From NCBI GenBank assembly GCA_017534815.1, contig JAFXVS010000023.1:1-40674 (forward strand): a DNA stretch of 40,674 nucleotides, in the 5' to 3' direction. The notes under the pieces are model-generated. The model worked only from the letters and a program-made list of their open reading frames with translations. It made no database searches and was not told the DNA's origin. This document shows positions 5,801-24,725 of the stretch, piece by piece. Position 1 is the first letter of the stretch. Every line of letters starts with the position of its first letter. A program made the translations under genes and the position numbers. This DNA is from Bacteroidaceae bacterium (GTDB lineage Bacteria > Bacteroidota > Bacteroidia > Bacteroidales > Bacteroidaceae).

Positions 5801-6485
5801 CAGTCTCCTTCTTCAACGCCTTTGTGTTGATGGCAGACAAGAAGGCCGCCAAGCGATGGAGATCTGAACCGAAGAAGCTGTAATAGCCTTTGGCGAGCAA
5901 TGACTGTGCCTTATCCTGTGCGGACTTTCCATAACCGCCAGCCAGAGACATCAGGTTCATCTGCATCTTCACTTTCATTCCGCTCAGATAGTCATAATCC
6001 TTATCCGTCATGTAGATGTAGCGTTCTGGATGAGCCAAGATGGGTTGATAACCCTTTTCTATGATGCGCTTCAATGTCCCATACAGATCCATTGGCGCTT
6101 GGTAATATGATGTTTCCACTAAGAGGTGATTCCCCTTTGAGCCGATGGGCAACAGGTCGCCAGACTCAATCCTTTCGCTGAACAGGTTGTCGAGCATGTT
6201 CTCCGCAGCCAGATGCAGAATGATGGAACCCTCGTAGGCTTCCTGCAGTTCCTGGAATCGTGCACGGAGTTCATCGGGCGTGTTGGGCATATCTTCCATG
6301 ATGTGGGGAGTGAGCCACACTTCGCGAATGCCCAGCTTCTCGTATGAGTCGAGAACAGCGAGGGACTCTTCCATTGTCTGGATGCCATCATCAACACCAG
6401 GAAGGATATGACTATGCCAATCCGTAGCGCCGTTGAGAATGCCCGTATTGATCAGCTTCTGTTTTGTGTTGAACAGTGAAAACAT
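5763..6485 (-). CDS. CpsB/CapC-like PHP-family tyrosine phosphatase
   Basis: Metal-dependent protein tyrosine phosphatase of the PHP fold, expected to dephosphorylate the Tyr tail of the neighbouring BY-kinase and so help control exopolysaccharide chain assembly. Metal-binding motifs are visible in order: DWHSH (residues 22-26) with ILPGVDDG, then TPHIM, AAEN, LAHPERY and GSDLHR. At 240 residues it is of normal size, with no signal peptide, so it is cytoplasmic. It lies 48 bp downstream of the kinase on the same strand, in the order export lipoprotein, kinase, phosphatase. Its 3' end overlaps the convergent WbqC-like gene by 38 bp. Confidence 0.9.
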   Translation of the reverse strand: MFSLFNTKQKLINTGILNGATDWHSHILPGVDDGIQTMEESLAVLDSYEKLGIREVWLTPHIMEDMPNTPDELRARFQELQEAYEGSIILHLAAENMLDNLFSERIESGDLLPIGSKGNHLLVETSYYQAPMDLYGTLKRIIEKGYQPILAHPERYIYMTDKDYDYLSGMKVKMQMNLMSLAGGYGKSAQDKAQSLLAKGYYSFFGSDLHRLAAFLSAINTKALKKETVTLLPRIQNVIL

Positions 6486-6533
6486 ATATTACACATTATT
6501 AATAATAATAGAAACGAGTTAGCCCTCTTCTAT

Positions 6534-9020
6534 TTATTCACTATCCTTCTCTGAATTTCCGTAGCCGTAGCCATAGCCATAGCCATAGCCGTACTTGTTG
6601 TAATAGCCGTACTTGCTATAATAGCCATACTTATGGTAACCATAACGACCGCCTGCGAACATCGTACCATTGAGAATGAGTGCCATATTCTTGTACTTCT
6701 TCTCTTTGTACATTATATCAATCTTAGGCAACATACTGCGCTCCAACAATTCGGCACGAACCACGAAAAGAGTGAGATCGACATAATTGTTGATGATGGA
6801 GGAGTCTGCCAACATTTCGATTGGAGGACAATCGAGGAAGACAAAGTCATATTCCTCACGCAGTGTGTTGATCATTTGCTCCAGACGTGGGCTATAGAGG
6901 AGCTCTGCAGGGTTAGGAGGCAGGGCGCCGCAAGGAAGCACATCCAGTTCTTCTCGGATGGTTCCACGAACCAACGCCTCATGGAAGTCTGCGATGTCTC
7001 CGTTCAGGTATTCTGAAACACCTGGCTTAGGATTATTCACGTAGATACTGAGTGATGCCTTACGAAGGTCAAGGTCTACTATACAAACCTTCTTGCCCTT
7101 GATGGCGTAGCTGACAGCCAAGTTCATAGCCAAGAAAGTCTTACCTGAACCAGGGTTGAACGAAGAAGTCATCACCACCTTGTCGCCATTGTGACCCAAC
7201 ATGAATTCGAGGTTGGTACGTACCACACGGAAGGCCTCGTTGATCATGTCGCGCTTTCTATCCTTCACAACAATCTCGCGCTTCTCTTCCTCGTGAACCT
7301 TCTTCTTTTGGAGCTTATGAATAAATCCACGAATGGCTGCGAACTTCGATTTCTTCTTTTTGCCCACATATGGAATTTCACCCACATAAGGCACAACCAG
7401 TTTCTCGATATCCTTACGACCACGTACACGGGTATTCATGGTTTCCAAAAGATAGATGATACCAATAGGAAGTGCCAAACCGATGGCGAAGGCAATCAAG
7501 AGAATCTTGCTCTTGGCTGGGGCTACTGGGAAGTCTGAACCCACTGCCCAGTTGATGATTCGAGTGTTATAGGCTGTGAAGCTTTGGCTGATTTCATTCT
7601 CCTCACGCTTCTGCAGGAGGAAAAGGTAAAGAGACTCTTTCACCTTCTGCTGACGTTCTACAGAAAGAATGTATTTTGCCTGTGTTGGATTGGTGGTCAA
7701 CTGAGAGCTTGACAACGCATCCTTGCGCTCCAATGTCTGAATCTGACCATTCAACACATAGATGTAATTTTCAAGTGAAGCCTTGATAACTTGGCGCATC
7801 TGGTTCAGCTGTTGATCCATTTCAACCAACATCGGGTTCTGCTCGTTACTGTTTGCAGCTAAATTGTTGCGCTGAAGGAGATTGGAGTTGTAGTCCGCAA
7901 TCTGCTTTTCAATGCTGGCATTTTCAATTCCTGAGTTAGCGGGCAACAACTGATTCTTCGTCATATTGCTATTCAGCTGCTGGCGGATGTAAGTGGCCAT
8001 TGACTTGCGGTTGTTGTAGTCAAATAACTGGTCGTTAATGTCAATCTTTTTACCAGTGTAGATGGTCGCAGTCTGTTCAACGCTTGGAATCTTGTTGGCA
8101 CTCTTGTAAGAAGAGATATCGCTATCCACAGAACCCAGTTCCTTCTCAATCACGCCCAAACGTTCGTTGATGAATTCAGAGGTGCTGACGATGATCTGGT
8201 TCTTTTCCTTCAGCCAGTTTTCATTATAGACGTCAATGATGGTGTTCACTACATCGGTGGCACGTTCAATGGACACGTCTGTATAGGACAGGTCAATCAC
8301 TTCTGCATTCTTGTCGGCCAAATCTGCCTCCATGTTGGCAATGCAGATCTCAACAGCAATGTTGAAGCGCTTTTTCACGATGTCCACTTCTGAAATGGGT
8401 TCCGCGTCTTCTTTGGGGATATATTCAGCGCTACGGCTCACGATGACAGTACCTCCGAATGGGGTCTGGATGGAATCGAGCAAGGCGCCTTCGACTGTAT
8501 ATTGACAAGATTCTCCATTGAAATTGTCAACTTCAAGCTTGAATTTGTCCTCTTCCACCTTCAGTTTTCCTCGCAAAGATTGGTTGTCCATATCCAAGAA
8601 TGAAATCTTGAAAGGAAGATTGGAACCATAAAGCAATTTGTCGTAGAAGAAACCATCCACATAGTAATCTACATCCATGCCCAGATTCTTCACTACACCA
8701 CTGATGACGGAAGGTGATTTCAATGTCAGGATTTCATTGTACACGCTTGATGTCAAGCCTAAACTGCTCAATTCAGACAGGTCGGCAATTTGACCACTGC
8801 TTCTTCTTCTGTTCTCTTCTTTGATCAGCACGGCTGCTGTACGCTTGTAGGTAGGAGGTGTGGTCTTGATGTATAGCATAGCGATAATCAGACATATTAC
8901 AACCGATGCAACAATCCAGTACCACTTGCTTAGACACAAGGAAAGAATGTCCATGAAACTCAGGCCTTCTTCTTTCTCTTCTGAATCAATATCTACTGTT
9001 CTTAATATTTCTTCTGCCAT
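6534..9020 (-). CDS. Wzc-like polysaccharide co-polymerase and BY-family tyrosine autokinase
   Basis: Inner-membrane protein that couples chain-length control to a cytoplasmic ATPase/tyrosine kinase in capsule or exopolysaccharide export. The N-terminal Wzz-type region has a membrane segment at about residues 33-51, a long periplasmic coiled-coil region, and a second membrane segment at about 500-525. The kinase domain carries Walker A GSGKT (about 620-627), Walker A' VDLDLRKAS (about 650) and Walker B FLDCPP (about 728). The C-terminus (about 790-822) is a Tyr cluster alternating with Gly, the expected autophosphorylation tail. At 828 residues it is a full one-piece kinase. The tail is encoded partly by a hexanucleotide repeat. 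It is cotranscribed with the export lipoprotein and the phosphatase. Confidence 0.94.
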   Translation of the reverse strand: MAEEILRTVDIDSEEKEEGLSFMDILSLCLSKWYWIVASVVICLIIAMLYIKTTPPTYKRTAAVLIKEENRRRSSGQIADLSELSSLGLTSSVYNEILTLKSPSVISGVVKNLGMDVDYYVDGFFYDKLLYGSNLPFKISFLDMDNQSLRGKLKVEEDKFKLEVDNFNGESCQYTVEGALLDSIQTPFGGTVIVSRSAEYIPKEDAEPISEVDIVKKRFNIAVEICIANMEADLADKNAEVIDLSYTDVSIERATDVVNTIIDVYNENWLKEKNQIIVSTSEFINERLGVIEKELGSVDSDISSYKSANKIPSVEQTATIYTGKKIDINDQLFDYNNRKSMATYIRQQLNSNMTKNQLLPANSGIENASIEKQIADYNSNLLQRNNLAANSNEQNPMLVEMDQQLNQMRQVIKASLENYIYVLNGQIQTLERKDALSSSQLTTNPTQAKYILSVERQQKVKESLYLFLLQKREENEISQSFTAYNTRIINWAVGSDFPVAPAKSKILLIAFAIGLALPIGIIYLLETMNTRVRGRKDIEKLVVPYVGEIPYVGKKKKSKFAAIRGFIHKLQKKKVHEEEKREIVVKDRKRDMINEAFRVVRTNLEFMLGHNGDKVVMTSSFNPGSGKTFLAMNLAVSYAIKGKKVCIVDLDLRKASLSIYVNNPKPGVSEYLNGDIADFHEALVRGTIREELDVLPCGALPPNPAELLYSPRLEQMINTLREEYDFVFLDCPPIEMLADSSIINNYVDLTLFVVRAELLERSMLPKIDIMYKEKKYKNMALILNGTMFAGGRYGYHKYGYYSKYGYYNKYGYGYGYGYGYGNSEKDSE
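6561..6590. repeat. Hexanucleotide repeat in the kinase Tyr tail
   Basis: Five tandem hexamers, GTAGCC twice then ATAGCC three times, encode five Tyr-Gly pairs on the minus strand. Gain or loss of units stays in frame and would change the number of tail tyrosines. Confidence 0.8.
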
Positions 9021-9089
9021 AATTTTTTATATTTCGCTTTTACCTTATAATAAATAAAGAATAAATGTCCGTTTTCGTTGGTATTTTCC

Positions 9090-9896
9090 CTATTTCTTCA
9101 AGAACACAGCGATGGACAAGCCAACAGACAATGCTGACATCCAGAAGGAAGGAGTCAACAGCGTATTACCTGTTGCAGTACTTTGTCTTGCTCTCACTTT
9201 ATTAGGCTCCACATAGATGATATCATCCTGTTGCAACATATAAACAGGGGATTGGCAAACATCGTGGAAATTGGTCAAGTCCACTTCGTAGGTCTTGAGT
9301 TTCGTTCCATCTTTACGGAACACCTTTACGTTTTTACGATTACCATACTGAGTAAGGTCACCAGCACGTGCAATAGCATCTAACAACGTGAACTGGTCGC
9401 GATCAATGGCCATAACACCTTGAGATTTCACCTCACCCAACACGCCTACGTGGAGATTGGCAAATTCTACGGTGACGGTGGCGTCTTTCACACCTTCTGC
9501 AGAAGTGGTCAACTTCGTCTTCACCAGTTCTGCGATTTGATTACGGGTTAATCCGTCCACATGGATTTTACCCATAACAGGAACATCTACATCACCCTTT
9601 TCATCGACTGTGTAGGCGGTTACGGAACTACTGTTGGAGTAGGAAACGTTACCACCCTGATTACCGATACGGTTGGTTACGGTTACCAAATTATAGATGG
9701 TAGCCAATTGGGGGTCTTTGCAACTGATAAAGATATAAATCTTATCATACGGTTTCACTTTAACCGCTTCAGTTAAACTAGGAATTTGATTCACATCACC
9801 ATTTGCCGTGTCTTGAAAGTAGTTGAAGTCGGCAACGGAACCACATGAGCTCAGGATAAGCACTGAGATTGTAAGTAAAAAAAAGATCTTTTTCAT
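9090..9896 (-). CDS. Wza-like polysaccharide export outer-membrane lipoprotein
   Basis: Poly_export/SLBB protein forming the outer-membrane exit for exopolysaccharide. The start at 9896 gives a lipoprotein signal MKKIFFLLTISVLILSSCG with the acylated Cys at residue 18; the ATG 36 bp upstream would add 12 residues that spoil the signal peptide. A Poly_export segment follows (VKPYDKIYIFISCKDP), then an SLBB-like domain (VGVLGEVKSQGVMAI, LLDAIARAGDLTQYGNRKNV). The segment YMLQQDDIIYVEPNKV is typical, and a hydrophobic stretch near the C-terminus may be the membrane-crossing helix. At 268 residues it is short, as usual in Bacteroidetes. First gene of the export trio, 69 bp before the kinase. Confidence 0.92.
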   Translation of the reverse strand: MKKIFFLLTISVLILSSCGSVADFNYFQDTANGDVNQIPSLTEAVKVKPYDKIYIFISCKDPQLATIYNLVTVTNRIGNQGGNVSYSNSSSVTAYTVDEKGDVDVPVMGKIHVDGLTRNQIAELVKTKLTTSAEGVKDATVTVEFANLHVGVLGEVKSQGVMAIDRDQFTLLDAIARAGDLTQYGNRKNVKVFRKDGTKLKTYEVDLTNFHDVCQSPVYMLQQDDIIYVEPNKVRARQSTATGNTLLTPSFWMSALSVGLSIAVFLKK

Positions 9897-19256: not shown

Positions 19257-20750
19257 CTATTCGAGCACCTTTCTTCCCTGAACGACCTTGATGGTGTTGG
19301 GTAATGGTGTGTTGATAGGAAGCCCGCTCAAGTTGTAGGTTGCTTCAGGTTGAGCATTAGAGGTTGAGGCGGGCGTGTCCTCAATGGCCATAGGTGCCTG
19401 ACTGAACTGCCACGAGTCAAAGTCAAACAGAGAGGCTCCGCTGCCAGAGAACGTGAAGAAGATGCTTTGGGTACCAGTGATGGGTGTTCTTAAGTCGCAC
19501 TTCACTTCTTGCCACTCCCCATTCGTCGGTTCGATGGTTACAGTCCCCCTTGCTGTTCCTGTCTTGGTGAGACGTATGTACATCGTGCAGGTACGATCTG
19601 CTTTCACCTTCGCTGTGAACGACTGGGCACCAGCATCCCCAAAGTCCACGTTGCGCACCTTGATGTAGTCGCCGCTGCTGATGTTGGTCACGTAACAGCC
19701 CGTGTAATCGCCCATGCACTTCACCCCTTGACATTGGTTGATGGTTTCGGCCTCCTGAAGTTCGTAGGGGTCAAGGGTCTGCAATGGACTGACGCCCGTA
19801 GTGGTTGCCTCGATGAAGGGGATGGAGCCGTCTTCGTTGGGTGTGTACTCTTCCACGCAAGTGGAGCGTTTGTAACCACCGCCATTGGGCAATTTGCCAT
19901 TGTGGTAGAACAAATAATAGTGTCCCTTATATTCCACGCTTCCTCCATGAATGGTGAAACTGTTGTCTGCTGTCCCCATGATTTTTCCCTGATAAGTCCA
20001 AGGGCCAATGATTCTGTCGGCAGTCGAGTAGGCCCAATGTTCAGGCACGCCTCCAGCGGCATATTCCAGATAGTATTTGCCATTACGCTTATAGATCCAC
20101 GAAGCCTCTTCGAAGTTCGTCTTGGGAGTTTGGTCATCGTTATAACCCTTGAAGGGACCGAAGTATGTCTCATTTTTCGTGTTCACTTCTATTTCACTGC
20201 CGGAGATCGAGGTCATATTATTGGACAATCTGGCATACCACAATGCATTATTGCCGTAGAAAAGATAGGCTCGGGTGCCATCAATGATGACGGTGGGGTC
20301 AATCTTTCCCCATCCCTGAACTATGGGGTGATTGATGGCGTCCTTATAAGGCCCGGCAGGATGGTCAGCTACAGCCACACCAATACCAGGGTAACCTCCA
20401 TTCTTGACCGTTGCTGTCACATACCAATACCATTTGCCGTTACGTTCTACGCATTGGCTGGCCCAACAGTCGTTGTCCGTCTTGGCCCACGCATTGAACG
20501 TCTCACCAGTCAGGGGTGTGCCTCGATACGTCCAGTTCACCATATCGACGGTGCTGTACAGTAACCAGTCCTTCATGGTGAAGAAATTATTTTCAGTGAC
20601 ATCTTCATCATGGTCAACAAACAAATACAAGGTGTCCCCATGCACATAGGGTGCAGGGTCAGACGTGTAGCGGTCACAGATAATGGGGTTCTGTGCCAGT
20701 GTGACAACAGATGCCAGCACGAAAGCACAACCAGCGAGCAATTTCTTCAT
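19257..20750 (-). CDS. Secreted glycoside hydrolase family 43 with CBM6-like domain
   Basis: Secreted enzyme expected to cut xylose- or arabinose-containing side chains or oligosaccharides. The signal peptide is MKKLLAGCAFVLASVVTLA. The GH43 five-bladed domain has the catalytic base Asp31 in YTSDPAPYV, the modulating Asp in KIDPTVIIDG and the proton-donor Glu in NFEEASWIYKRNGKYYL. A carbohydrate-binding module of CBM6 type follows (about 330-455: LQEAETINQCQGVKC, ending FDFDSWQFS). The tail YNLSGLPINTPLPNTIKVVQGRKVLE resembles the short C-terminal domain of many secreted Prevotella enzymes. First gene of GH43-SDR-rnhB, with its own promoter. No SusC/D pair is nearby. Exact substrate unknown. 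Confidence 0.9.
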   Translation of the reverse strand: MKKLLAGCAFVLASVVTLAQNPIICDRYTSDPAPYVHGDTLYLFVDHDEDVTENNFFTMKDWLLYSTVDMVNWTYRGTPLTGETFNAWAKTDNDCWASQCVERNGKWYWYVTATVKNGGYPGIGVAVADHPAGPYKDAINHPIVQGWGKIDPTVIIDGTRAYLFYGNNALWYARLSNNMTSISGSEIEVNTKNETYFGPFKGYNDDQTPKTNFEEASWIYKRNGKYYLEYAAGGVPEHWAYSTADRIIGPWTYQGKIMGTADNSFTIHGGSVEYKGHYYLFYHNGKLPNGGGYKRSTCVEEYTPNEDGSIPFIEATTTGVSPLQTLDPYELQEAETINQCQGVKCMGDYTGCYVTNISSGDYIKVRNVDFGDAGAQSFTAKVKADRTCTMYIRLTKTGTARGTVTIEPTNGEWQEVKCDLRTPITGTQSIFFTFSGSGASLFDFDSWQFSQAPMAIEDTPASTSNAQPEATYNLSGLPINTPLPNTIKVVQGRKVLE

Positions 20751-21034: not shown

Positions 21035-21169
21035 GGTCGGAGCGGGAAGCCTTCGAGGTCGGAGCGGGAGGAATGCAAGCACCTTCGCCCTCCAACGGAC
21101 GGCTGTGGACGATACGCCGTTTCGTGAGGCACGATACGGCGTATCAAGGGGCACGAAACGCCGTATCGT
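21035..21169. repeat. GC-rich direct repeats and a complex hairpin block
   Basis: GGTCGGAGCGGGA occurs at 21035-21047 and again at 21057-21069 (period 22 bp). Arms 21109-21126 and 21152-21169 are reverse complements over 18 bp with one mismatch. Between them, GATAC-GGC-GTATC (21133-21145) is a third dyad using the same GATACG(C/G)CGT theme. Together with the 27-bp inverted repeats this fills most of the gene-free region 20751-21327. No convincing coding sequence is seen there. Confidence 0.75.
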
Positions 21170-21291
21170 TTTGAACCCGTTTTTGAAGATTTTGAGCGAA
21201 CTTTTCTTCGGATTCTGGAATGATTCCTTGTTTTTTTGATGCAATTTGTTCATTTTTTTCTCGATTTGTTTGTGATATGTTAATTTTTGTC

Positions 21292-21299
21292 TAAATTTG
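21292..21299 (+). promoter_or_regulatory. -7 box TAAATTTG for the sensor operon
   Basis: TAAATTTG fits TAnnTTTG and lies 28 bp before the ATG at 21328. Confidence 0.6.
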
Positions 21300-21333
21300 C
21301 AACCGATGAAGACCTAAATTGCAACCCATGAAG
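21297..21333. repeat. Imperfect direct duplication around the sensor start codon
   Basis: TTGCAACC(G/C)ATGAAG occurs at 21297-21311 and at 21319-21333 with one mismatch. The first copy's ATG opens a three-codon frame (Met-Lys-Thr-stop, 21306-21317); the second copy's ATG starts the sensor gene. Confidence 0.75.
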
Positions 21334-22800
21334 AGAGTAACTGAAAAACAATCCCGTCATTCGTTGACCACGCAAGTTGTGCTGTGGGTGGTTGGATTTG
21401 TGTCAGTGCTCTTCGTCACAGCTCTCTTCGTCATGTTCTACTATGCCCGTGAATCCATCTATCAGGAGGCGATGGAGAAAGCCCGTCAGACGCTGCGCAC
21501 TACAGAGTTGCGCATTGACAACACCCTGAACGAGGTGGAGACGGCCACGCGCAGCTGGCACTGGACCATTGAGAAGCGTCTGGACAGGCCTGAACTCTTG
21601 GACAGTCTCTGTCGGCAGCTGTTGAGGGAGAACCCTCACATCCAGAGCTGTACCATCGCTTTCGAACCTGGTGTCTATCCGCAATATGACATTTATCATG
21701 AGGTGTATGCCTACCGTAGCCCCGCTGATTCGACACAGATAGAAGTAACGGTGAACGGTGGAAAGCAACTTTATACACGTGAGAAATGGTACTTCATTCC
21801 CCTGCACCACGGGAAGCCCATCTGGATAGACCCTTATGTCGATGTGGAGCATGGGGAGACATCCATCATCACGTCCTATGGTATGCCGCTGCACAACAAA
21901 GAGGGGGAACTGGTGGGCGTGTTGTCGTCACACATCTCGATGAAGTGGTTTTCCGACTTGGTGCTCTCGCTGAAACCATTCCCCAACTCACATGCCTCCG
22001 TGATGGGTACTGACGGACACCTGATTATCCATCCTGACAGTACGCTCGAAGAGCATGAGGCCTTCTTTACTGAGGCCTTCAACGAACCCACCAACGAGGG
22101 GCATCTGGCAGCCATATCCATGAAGACAGGCCACATCGGACATAGCGAGATTCACATGGACGGCAAGAAGGACTTCATCTTCTATCATCCTTTTGAGAAT
22201 GCAGGATGGAGCGTGGCTATCGTATGTCCTGAGAGCGACATCTTCAGTTCCTACAACTCGCTTTTGCGCTATACGATCATCATCAGTCTCGGCGGTCTCT
22301 TGCTGCTGGCTCTGTTCTGTTTCTTTATCAGCCATCATCAGCTGAAGCCGTTGCAGCAGCTGGTGGATGAAGCCCAACGTATGGCCGATGGTCAGATGGA
22401 TGAGTTGGTGAAAAAAAGTAATCGCACGGACGAGGTGGGTTATTTGCAGAATACATTCCGCCAGATGCAGGAGAGCATCAGCCAGCACATCGCTCATATC
22501 ACACAACTGACCGATGTGCTCAGCCAGCGTAATGAAGACCTGAAACTGGCCTATGAACAGGCACGTGAGGCCGATCGCATGAAGGATGCCGTCATTCTGA
22601 ACATGAGCGATCGTATGGAGCAATCAGTGAAGGTCATCCACAACACCATCGCCGATTTCCGACAGCATGCGACTGAGATGAATACCGACGAATTCCGCCA
22701 GATGGCCGACAAGATAAAGGAACATACTGAAATGACCACAGCTGTGTTGGACAATCTGCTCGACATCGCTGACAAAAAGAAGAGAGGAGGGCGCCTATGA
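21328..22800 (+). CDS. Cache-HAMP receptor with degenerate histidine-kinase stalk (no ATPase domain)
   Basis: Membrane sensor with one helix near residues 15-40, a large periplasmic double-Cache-like domain (about 45-300), a second helix (about 312-335) and a HAMP domain (about 336-390: LKPLQQLVDEAQRMADGQMDEL). A helical region of about 100 residues then resembles a DHp dimerisation domain, but at the phospho-acceptor position it reads NMSDRM, with Asp428 in place of His. The protein ends at residue 490 without any HATPase domain. It is clearly paralogous to the next gene (shared VETATR, SDG/TDGH, GWSVAIVCP). The ATG at 21328 is chosen over an in-frame TTG at 21319. ATGA overlap with the next gene predicts coupled translation and perhaps heterodimerisation. 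Confidence 0.85.
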   Translation: MKRVTEKQSRHSLTTQVVLWVVGFVSVLFVTALFVMFYYARESIYQEAMEKARQTLRTTELRIDNTLNEVETATRSWHWTIEKRLDRPELLDSLCRQLLRENPHIQSCTIAFEPGVYPQYDIYHEVYAYRSPADSTQIEVTVNGGKQLYTREKWYFIPLHHGKPIWIDPYVDVEHGETSIITSYGMPLHNKEGELVGVLSSHISMKWFSDLVLSLKPFPNSHASVMGTDGHLIIHPDSTLEEHEAFFTEAFNEPTNEGHLAAISMKTGHIGHSEIHMDGKKDFIFYHPFENAGWSVAIVCPESDIFSSYNSLLRYTIIISLGGLLLLALFCFFISHHQLKPLQQLVDEAQRMADGQMDELVKKSNRTDEVGYLQNTFRQMQESISQHIAHITQLTDVLSQRNEDLKLAYEQAREADRMKDAVILNMSDRMEQSVKVIHNTIADFRQHATEMNTDEFRQMADKIKEHTEMTTAVLDNLLDIADKKKRGGRL

Positions 22801-24725
22801 TAGAGATGAGGAAAAATATTCGCCAGTCGCTCTCCACCCGACTCTGTCTCGACATCCTGTTTGTCGTGGTGCTGCTGTTCTTGCTGTCACTCGGATTCCT
22901 CTATTGGCAGTCACGCAGCATCATCAAGGACGAGGCTATTGACGAGGCATCACACGTGCTCGACAATACAGCGCTGCGTGTCAAGGGATATATGGTAGAG
23001 GTGGAGACAGCCACACGCAACATCATTTGGCTCGTCAACCTTCACAACGAGAAGGACTCCCTGCTGAAATATACACATCGCATCGTGGCCAACCACCCCA
23101 ACACAAACGGCTGTTCCATCACGATGGAGCCCGATTTCTATCCAGACGAAGAATACGGCTTTTCAGCCTATTCCGTTCGCCTTGAAGAATATTCAAGGCC
23201 AGAAAGGGATTCTGTGGTCACCGTCCGTGAAGCCAATTACGATTATTATAATAAGGTGTGGTATAAGACGCCACGTCAGAAAAAGACCGCTTGCTGGGTG
23301 GATCCCTTCGATGACTACAATGACGGAACGTTGTCAAGCCCAGAGATGATAGCATCTTTCTGCATCCCCCTTAACGACCGGCAGGGAAAGTTCGTGGGTG
23401 TCATCTCTACCGACCTGTCGCTGAAGAAGCTCACGGAAACCATCACAGCAGAACATCCGTACAAAAACTCCTACTTCATGTTGTTGGGTTCCGACGGACA
23501 CTACTTTGTACACCCCGACACCACGAAACTGCTCAAGCAGACCATCTTCACAGGCATAGACCCCAGGGAGCACACCGATATCGTGGCATTGGGATATGAG
23601 ATGACCAACGGACGGACAGGACACATGGATGTCAAAATTGACGGTACGTCACACATCGTGCTCTACCGACCTCTCGAAGGCACCCAGTGGAGCGTAGCGC
23701 TCGTCTGTCCCTCCAATGAACTGCTTCGAGGATACAACAGCCTGAACTACATTCTGGTGCCCCTGCTCATCATCGGATTGCTCTTGCTGGCAATAGGTTG
23801 CCACCGCATCGTGAAACACTTCACCCAGCCCTTGGGACTGCTGGCAGCCGAACTGAGGCAGATAGGCCACGGCGACTATGAAACGCTCCTGCCACATAGT
23901 CAGCGCACCGACCTGATAGGCCAGCTGCAGAACAGTTTCTGCCAGATGCGGCAGAGCATCAGCAAGCACATCAACGATGCAGAGAAGACGAAAGAGGAGA
24001 CTGAGCAGCGCACCAAGGAACTGGAACAAGCCACCCTGCTGGCACGGCGTGCAAGCGAGCAGAAGACACAGTTCATGCAAGACATCACCCACCAGATACA
24101 TACGCCACTCAACATCGTACATGGATTCTCCCAGATATTGTGCGAGACTGACATACTTTCTGATGACGAGAAAAAGGAGATGGCTGAGACCATGTACGTG
24201 CAGACCAACGCCCTCGACTATATGGTGAACAAGCTGTTCACAGCATCGCTTGTCGAGAGCTGTCAGACCATCGTCATCGACGAAGCCGTGGGCTGCAATA
24301 TGTTGGCACACGAAGCCGTCGAAACAGCCAGCAGTCTGGTGCCACATACCGTGGAGATGCATCTTGACAGCCATGTGGGCGATGAACTGACCCTTCAGAC
24401 CAACCGTCATCACCTGCTCATCGTCCTCACAGAGTTGCTCGTCAACGCCCTCCACTTCACCAGCCAGGGCAGCATCACCATGCGCATCGAAGCCACTGAC
24501 GATGTCGTGAACTTCACCGTCGAGGACACGGGTCCTGGCATTCCAACCGACAAGGCCGACTTCATCTTTGAGAAATTCACCAAAGTCGATATGTTCACAG
24601 AGGGGCTTGGTCTCGGCTTGTTCCTTTGCCGCCGTGTCATCATGCTGATGGACGGAACCCTCACGCTCGACACCCAATACACTGGTGGCAGTCGTTTCGT
24701 CGTGAGCCTTCCACTGCACCATTGA
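22797..24725 (+). CDS. Cache-HAMP sensor histidine kinase
   Basis: Complete sensor kinase of 642 residues. It has one membrane helix near residues 20-40, a periplasmic double-Cache-like domain, a second helix (about 320-342), HAMP (QPLGLLAAELRQIGHGDYETLL) and a coiled coil. The DHp has H-box DITHQIHTPLNIV (His432), and the HATPase domain has the N-box ELLVNALHF, VEDTGPGIP and GLGLGLFLCRRVI. It senses a periplasmic ligand and should phosphorylate a response regulator, but none is encoded nearby. Its ATG overlaps the stop of the paralogous kinase-less receptor (ATGA). The DUF4421 gene follows after 34 bp with no visible promoter. Confidence 0.92.
   Translation: MIEMRKNIRQSLSTRLCLDILFVVVLLFLLSLGFLYWQSRSIIKDEAIDEASHVLDNTALRVKGYMVEVETATRNIIWLVNLHNEKDSLLKYTHRIVANHPNTNGCSITMEPDFYPDEEYGFSAYSVRLEEYSRPERDSVVTVREANYDYYNKVWYKTPRQKKTACWVDPFDDYNDGTLSSPEMIASFCIPLNDRQGKFVGVISTDLSLKKLTETITAEHPYKNSYFMLLGSDGHYFVHPDTTKLLKQTIFTGIDPREHTDIVALGYEMTNGRTGHMDVKIDGTSHIVLYRPLEGTQWSVALVCPSNELLRGYNSLNYILVPLLIIGLLLLAIGCHRIVKHFTQPLGLLAAELRQIGHGDYETLLPHSQRTDLIGQLQNSFCQMRQSISKHINDAEKTKEETEQRTKELEQATLLARRASEQKTQFMQDITHQIHTPLNIVHGFSQILCETDILSDDEKKEMAETMYVQTNALDYMVNKLFTASLVESCQTIVIDEAVGCNMLAHEAVETASSLVPHTVEMHLDSHVGDELTLQTNRHHLLIVLTELLVNALHFTSQGSITMRIEATDDVVNFTVEDTGPGIPTDKADFIFEKFTKVDMFTEGLGLGLFLCRRVIMLMDGTLTLDTQYTGGSRFVVSLPLHH

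Follow-up and report, generated by a model that had tools for sequence, protein, structure and literature searches.

Bacterial sensor kinases are usually described as homodimers. Heterodimeric sensor kinases are termed rare; for FasB/FasC of group A Streptococcus, two-hybrid data support heterodimers and not homodimers, and FasC is proposed to be a pseudokinase whose kinase domain is dispensable (PMC12675982). Here we analyze two overlapping genes in a stretch of 40,674 nucleotides from a Bacteroidaceae bacterium (GenBank assembly GCA_017534815.1, contig JAFXVS010000023.1, positions 1 to 40,674, forward strand; this whole stretch is called the window). The first gene encodes a short receptor-only protein (S) and the second a sensor histidine kinase (K). 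We put the probability that both genes encode one membrane sensor kinase of two unlike subunits, S and K, at roughly 0.6.

FasB/FasC is like S/K in consisting of two adjacent kinase-like membrane proteins (PMC12675982), and for S/K the trees and 113 of 116 S open reading frames (ORFs) show adjacent paralogous kinase-like genes kept together. FasC has a predicted HATPase domain and a proposed phosphorylated His, whereas S has neither and His432 is on K; FasB and FasC are sensors with six transmembrane (TM) segments, whereas S and K are dCache-HAMP proteins; and a response regulator gene lies alongside FasB/FasC, whereas no receiver domain (REC) was found on the window contig (PMC12675982). In RocA/CovS, also of group A Streptococcus, a kinase-like accessory protein similarly acts without its His and modulates a true kinase; RocA co-immunoprecipitates with CovS, gave a negative two-hybrid test and, unlike S, keeps a degenerate CA domain (PMC7028121). 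RetS/GacS of Pseudomonas resembles what we propose for S/K in that two kinases interact and one modulates the other, and RetS and GacS form homodimers too (PMC12675982). In ChrS/HrrS of Corynebacterium glutamicum, a kinase without a working CA domain heterodimerizes with a paralogous kinase, but this pseudokinase is a laboratory-evolved frameshift in one strain, whereas S/K is a conserved gene pair (PMC9491836). The split kinases CheA3/CheA4 divide kinase functions over two proteins, and the same source counts 1,556 HisKA proteins without HATPase among 42,417; unlike CheA3/CheA4 as described there, the window K holds both the ATP domain and the His, and catalysis is not split (PMC3591291). Two lineages of the S/K family appear nearer to that case: lineage C, with an ATP domain and mostly no canonical His, and lineage D, with the His and no ATP domain.

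FasB/FasC, RocA/CovS, ChrS/HrrS, RetS/GacS and the split kinases show that such arrangements can work. Unlike S/K, RocA/CovS is reportedly not a fixed overlapping gene pair, and RetS, unlike S, is said to be a hybrid with receiver domains that is unlinked to GacS. None of these precedents, as far as the cited text goes, has a receptor-only protein that is consistently encoded by the first of two overlapping genes in several lineages. A search of titles and abstract beginnings in the open-licence literature found no description of the S/K pair, of Prevotella pseudokinases or of Bacteroidetes kinases without HATPase. The S/K family is a new, well-conserved variation on a rare, already known arrangement.

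The two-subunit arrangement appears fixed, old and repeatedly duplicated in Prevotella-type bacteria, many of them from the ruminant gut. Because natural variants exist, in which the His is normal or shifted, the ATP domain is missing, or a binding-protein gene does or does not lie next door, comparisons could test several questions: partner specificity, two-ligand integration and minimal phosphoacceptor requirements. Lineage C sharpens the question of where the phosphate goes.

The short protein and its conserved pairing with a kinase

K has a DHp domain with His432 and a HATPase_c domain, with all eight ATP-box motif residues examined (N, G1, F and G2 boxes), and is a HisKA kinase. S is not one: it has Asp428 instead of His and lacks HATPase_c. 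Its Pfam matches at E ≤ 1 are dCache_1 and HAMP, with neither HisKA nor HATPase among them. A sequence-only reading of the window had described the two adjacent, ATGA-overlapping ORFs as paralogous Cache-HAMP sensors, the second an intact kinase. All of this holds at the coordinates and Pfam scores of Table 1: both proteins match dCache and HAMP, and S and K are 31% identical across their shared part. In a sequence-profile search of solved structures, a profile built from short proteins matches the sensor 3lib/3li8 (E 2.4e-19).

The helical hairpin at the end of S is a DHp domain by three kinds of evidence. Among 18 diverse S proteins, 7 have a Pfam HisKA match at E ≤ 1 (best 1.5e-6), and the window S is not one of these. 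A profile of 56 S HAMP-DHp regions matches solved histidine kinases: 7z8n at E 2.3e-10, and the HK853 DHp (2c2a/3dge) at E about 7e-8 over profile positions 76–151. AlphaFold2 gives gene 1 a long helix (H369–450), a two-residue turn and a return helix (H453–487), followed by the chain end; the HAMP-DHp region modeled alone has a mean predicted local distance difference test score (pLDDT) of 88. Predicted template modeling scores (pTM) were modest (0.54 and 0.51), and therefore only the secondary structure of the models was used. Pfam and this hairpin both bear out the earlier claim that gene 1 stops after a DHp-like region with no HATPase domain. So do the codons (GAT and CAC) and the alignment to 7z8n for its pairing of Asp428 with His432: in that alignment, the only one printed, the S Asp lies under the His of NMSHEIRTPL. 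The alignment of Asp428 with the His432 column is not forced.

Loci for comparison came from three sources: 101 genomes (the window genome and relatives), with follow-up loci picked by hand among the matches listed; a scan of named genome contigs, from which the best 80 of 142 confirmed stretches were kept; and a family-level search of 399 genomes with three candidates scored per genome. The family-level search matched 24 of the 399 genomes at E ≤ 1e-85, spread over 4 of 30 genera, and 19 of the 24 belong to the window's genus, the window genome included. Most named records are metagenome assemblies with Prevotella, Prevotellaceae, Bacteroidaceae or Bacteroidales in the title, and many come from ruminant gut; one isolate, Prevotella sp. 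tf2-5, has a window-type pair (L103). S ORFs were defined by having no HATPase match. The 113 pairs found include copies of the same locus from two collections, and 80 pairs are left once identical ones are removed. Lineages were labeled by best BLAST match to reference short proteins: A (the window type, 29 pairs), B (21), C (26) and D (4), with three loci labeled C (L188, L190, L191) falling beside lineage A in the kinase tree. L121 (contig ending within the gene), L134 (a fragment), and L112 and L054/L126 (short ORF near a contig end; the L054/L126 kinase is listed as running off the contig) were excluded from the pairs.

Counting copies, 113 of 116 S ORFs have a kinase directly downstream on the same strand, and the remaining three (two distinct loci) have less than 1.8 kb of contig left. 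The overlap of S and K is exactly 4 nt in 54 of the 80 non-redundant pairs; larger overlaps probably stem from the longest-ORF rule. All 80 S proteins end 52–88 residues past the phosphoacceptor column, at about the end of DHp helix 2. The other 115 cache-DHp ORFs at these loci are the 113 partner kinases and one lone kinase counted twice (L163 = L088), and hence the short position is never occupied by a protein with HATPase. Both the pairing and the truncation, which the sequence-only reading had left to comparison with other genomes, are therefore conserved. The pair is kept together though flanking genes vary among lineage A loci. Chance is excluded by the 80 non-redundant pairs: the S/K pair is a conserved design, not a local accident, and S and K are paralogues of long standing that have remained neighbors, in most cases with the stop codon of S overlapping the start codon of K.

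On the kinase side, the eight N/G1/F/G2 residues are invariant in all 76 kinases of lineages A–C, and K carries both the ATP domain and the phosphoacceptor in 50 of 50 lineage A and B pairs. In the phosphoacceptor column of the 80 S proteins we find Asp (71), Asn (3), Gly (3), Glu (1), Ala (1) and Thr (1), and never His. Lineage A has Asp in 29 of 29 S and the canonical His in 29 of 29 K. The conservation of Asp proposed for checking thus extends through lineage A and breaks down in 9 of the 51 pairs outside it, so the conserved trait is the absence of His.

A proposed sensor kinase of two unlike subunits, and alternatives

In the reading that we prefer, HAMP, coiled coil and DHp would join S and K in an S:K heterodimer, or in a larger assembly that includes S:K. 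Each subunit would supply its own dCache input, giving two sensory inputs to one catalytic unit. A rumen survey proposes that dCache_1 receptors, histidine kinases and serine phosphatases among them, are receptors for autoinducer-2 (AI-2), and it places Prevotella among the genera richest in AI-2-related genes (PMC9540692). K would bind ATP and phosphorylate His432; as S has neither the His nor an ATP domain, this would happen in cis or between K subunits touching each other in a larger complex. S would set or tune the kinase/phosphatase balance of K and pass on no phosphate itself, and the phosphate would go to a response regulator whose gene lies elsewhere. The window contig yielded no receiver domain, in keeping with an earlier remark that no response regulator is nearby, and the 10 in the genome (about 75% complete) all lie elsewhere. 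A partner receptor acting in a heterodimer had already been suggested from the window alone. It stands as the best reading, with indirect support from overlapping genes, trees and DHp–DHp co-variation, from which we infer the interaction itself. Promoter matches, present upstream of S in some pairs and absent near the K start, were also counted in its favor.

The pseudo-DHp of S is under purifying selection. Its median ratios of nonsynonymous to synonymous substitution (dN/dS) are 0.13 (A), 0.12 (B) and 0.15 (C), within the range of the other S domains (lineage A S domains, medians 0.08–0.13). Co-variation was assessed within each lineage by partial Mantel tests of S against K domain distances, with the other domains regressed out (2,000 permutations; 12 uncorrected tests per lineage). 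S coil+DHp follows K coil+DHp, with r of 0.53 (A), 0.64 (B) and 0.38 (C), each at p < 0.001, and shows no clear correlation with K HATPase (–0.06, –0.09 and 0.14). Since the S DHp adjoins the K N-terminus in the DNA, linkage alone would predict a different pattern. Between S dCache and K dCache the correlation is 0.61 in A and 0.23 in B. From this fair but indirect evidence we infer that the DHp regions of S and K touch.

Several results weigh against a two-subunit kinase. The K DHp is more constrained than the S pseudo-DHp (dN/dS 0.08 in A, 0.07 in B, 0.10 in C). S coil+DHp is correlated with K HAMP as well in A (0.48), and with K dCache in B (0.35). For the DHp alone in lineage A the correlation is 0.38 with K DHp versus 0.40 with K HAMP+coil. 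In lineage C, the correlation of S dCache is stronger with K HATPase (0.44) than with K dCache (0.18, p 0.083). Partial correlation removes the shared history of linked genes just partly. The co-variation is at the level of domains: residue-level mutual information over 76 pairs (effective number 26.5) puts 2 near-register pairs in the top 20 versus a null mean of 0.68 (p 0.13), with no clear excess in the top 50 or 100. Finally, loci were fetched by similarity to S, so kinases of the same family that have no S may be under-counted.

S and K could instead be chiefly homodimers, with S acting as a receptor of its own that, like RetS, competes with K or inhibits it by exchange, or else buffers the ligand. 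S has the parts for homodimerization (HAMP, coil and DHp), and RetS/GacS and RocA/CovS are precedents of kinase-like proteins that modulate another kinase. We consider this possible but unlikely, as the fixed pairing, the overlapping genes and the domain-specific DHp–DHp co-variation better fit a stoichiometric complex. It is improbable that S signals to a third protein, either another kinase or another output, with adjacency to K reflecting co-regulation only. This would agree with the lack of any receiver domain found on the window contig and with the SpoIIE phosphatase output of related dCache-HAMP sensors in these bacteria (15 of 15 typed), but the pair persists despite differing flanks among lineage A loci, and the S DHp co-varies with K.

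The sequence-only reading had also suggested that the S Asp might mimic a phosphorylated state; such a mimic would lock K or bias it. The presence of Asp in 71 of the 80 S proteins, including every one of lineage A, would suit this, but the other nine have Asn, Gly, Glu, Ala or Thr. Asp is moreover a poor chemical mimic of phospho-His. Phospho-mimicry as a rule of the family is ruled out by the nine exceptions, and we find it very improbable for the window pair. It is barely credible that gene 1 was truncated recently, is decaying or reflects an assembly error: a relative with just a 163-aa fragment of the short gene (L134) indicates that local decay may occur, but conserved pairing, 29 non-redundant pairs in lineage A and 80 overall, and the low dN/dS of lineage A S domains refute it for gene 1.

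History and variants of the pair

A dCache-HAMP tree (92 rows) places all paired K on one side, with a Shimodaira–Hasegawa-like approximate likelihood ratio (SH-aLRT) support of 100, and all S together with the lone kinase L163 on the other (99). Lineage B is the earliest branch, with a support of 99 on the K side and a weaker 84–85 on the S side. The S-side order of A, C and D is poorly resolved, lineage A kinases are nested among C kinases, and the branch that carries the root has weak support (74). In a 39-row subset, the approximately unbiased test rejects S and K of lineage A as one clade (p-AU 4e-7) and likewise those of lineage B (1.6e-4). The separate sides and the rejected single clades point to one old duplication that split S and K; separate tandem duplications are rejected. 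After the split, the pair appears to have multiplied as a unit into lineages A–D, and the window genome holds one A and one C pair. The lone kinase (L163/L088) is a full-length protein whose sensor falls on the S side (98.7). Its placement with the kinases is rejected (p 0.018, 39-row subset), and positions inside or outside the S proteins are both compatible. It may be what S resembled before losing its catalytic part. By our own reading of the sequence, a porin-like gene lies upstream of it.

In each of the 21 lineage B pairs, S is immediately preceded by a gene for a periplasmic binding protein of the NMT1/THI5 type (PF09084 at 7.5e-22 in the one typed), and in several of them the two genes overlap by 4 nt. 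The binding-protein gene is thus within the sensor operon, and its product may be coupled to the sensor. Recurrent 3' neighbors of the B pairs are an aminotransferase and an FtsX/MacB-type permease (one of each typed). No NMT1-type gene lies upstream in A (0/29), C (0/26) or D (0/4), where 55 of 59 pairs have at least 1.2 kb upstream (25 of 29 in A), and none was matched in the window genome, which is about 75% complete. A binding protein for the window pair was accordingly rejected as a candidate: none is adjacent in lineage A, four loci of which have less than 1.2 kb upstream, and the genome has no NMT1 match.

An NMT1-type gene also precedes 22 of 30 other dCache ORFs without DHp at these loci. 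Fifteen of the 30 were typed and all 15 are SpoIIE phosphatases (dCache-HAMP-SpoIIE). Examples of NMT1-type genes upstream of lineage B pairs or SpoIIE phosphatases are at L046, L052, L089, L093, L149 and L151. With lineage B branching first and the SpoIIE phosphatases as outgroup, the ancestral sensor probably listened to a binding protein, and A, C and D have probably lost the ancestral neighboring gene. Three loci have dCache proteins of 338–345 aa with no DHp or HATPase match (L204, 3956–4993; L205, 3997–5031; L206, 4193–5209; all on the minus strand), which in our own reading seem to terminate just past the second TM segment. An NMT1-type gene lies upstream of the one in L204 and overlaps it. 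L207 appears to be a SpoIIE-type frame split in two pieces, with no DHp match.

Of the 26 lineage C kinases, 20 carry Leu, Ile, Met or Arg at the canonical His position, and the eight N/G1/F/G2 residues are invariant in all 26. The second pair of the window genome is of this type (L045, G000:C1:56000-69562, locus 6177–9565, minus strand); its kinase reads FIHEVSLQIRTPL, with the canonical His replaced by Leu and the ATP boxes intact. A His at position –4, one helical turn upstream, occurs in 15 of the 20 kinases without the canonical His and in 0 of the 6 with it. In lineage C S proteins, a His at –4 occurs in 25 of 26 and is among the four best conserved positions of the S coil+DHp. One could therefore suppose an obligately two-subunit kinase family in which catalysis was redistributed several times, the lineage C acceptor having moved one turn upstream, maybe on S. 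We regard this as doubtful. Five of the 20 kinases have neither the canonical nor the –4 His. The kinase tree requires 3 changes for the canonical His and 4 for the –4 His, so the counts do not represent independent events, and an independent-pairs test has just two pairs.

In lineage D (L152, L153, L166, L175), the first protein has 341 aa and a shortened sensor, and the second has an intact H-box His and no HATPase domain.

Feature coordinates and neighboring genes

Table 1. Features of the S/K gene pair and its upstream region (positions in the window).
Feature	Position	Strand	Basis
Gene 1 (S), receptor-only protein, dCache-HAMP-coil-pseudo-DHp, 490 aa	21328..22800	+	ORF call, Pfam, AlphaFold2
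Gene 1 dCache periplasmic sensor, residues 43–299	21454..22224	+	Pfam dCache_1 4.1e-14
Gene 1 HAMP, residues 333–385	22324..22482	+	Pfam 5.1e-11
Gene 1 pseudo-DHp hairpin, about residues 410–485, without phosphoacceptor	22555..22782	+	HK853 DHp profile match, AlphaFold2 model
Asp428 codon GAT, phosphoacceptor column of gene 1	22609..22611	+	Sequence, alignment
ATGA overlap, gene 1 stop and gene 2 start	22797..22800	+	Sequence
Gene 2 (K), sensor histidine kinase, 642 aa	22797..24725	+	ORF call, Pfam
Gene 2 dCache sensor, residues 92–301	23070..23699	+	Pfam MCP-like_PDC_1 4.1e-14, dCache_1 1.4e-17
Gene 2 HAMP, residues 338–389	23808..23963	+	Pfam 1.5e-5
Gene 2 HisKA/DHp, residues 422–484	24060..24248	+	Pfam 7.5e-10
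His432 codon CAC, phosphoacceptor of gene 2	24090..24092	+	Sequence, alignment
Gene 2 HATPase_c, residues 537–641, N/G1/F/G2 boxes	24405..24719	+	Pfam 3.6e-23
Bacteroidetes-type promoter match TTTG-N19-TAAATTTG; ATG 21328 follows after 28 nt	21269..21299	+	Sequence, match to promoter consensus
Palindromic repeat upstream of the pair	21109–21169		14 matches over several contigs of the genome, counting this copy

The motif ahead of gene 1 matches the Bacteroidetes-type promoter consensus. Upstream of S, 11 of the 29 pairs in lineage A and 10 of the 26 in lineage C have a match, where about 0.14 would be expected in each set; the 21 lineage B and 4 lineage D pairs have none. Between the genes, the last 250 nt of the short gene contain no match to this consensus in any of the 80 pairs. 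The palindromic repeat, with its matches over several contigs, is probably a dispersed REP-like element.

Upstream of the window pair, on the opposite strand, lies a gene for a GH43 glycosidase with CBM6 (19257–20750). Of 23 lineage C pairs, 11 are preceded by an arabinofuranosidase gene (one typed); in lineage D, 3 of 4 pairs have a GH9-like gene ahead of them. Such glycosidase genes upstream of the pairs hint at plant-polysaccharide signals. Downstream of lineage C pairs on the opposite strand (L045, L066–L069, L072 and others) are adjacent genes for AriB (DUF4435) and AriA (an ATPase). Both follow 10 of the 23 lineage C pairs examined and, from one representative of each typed, resemble the PARIS anti-phage system.

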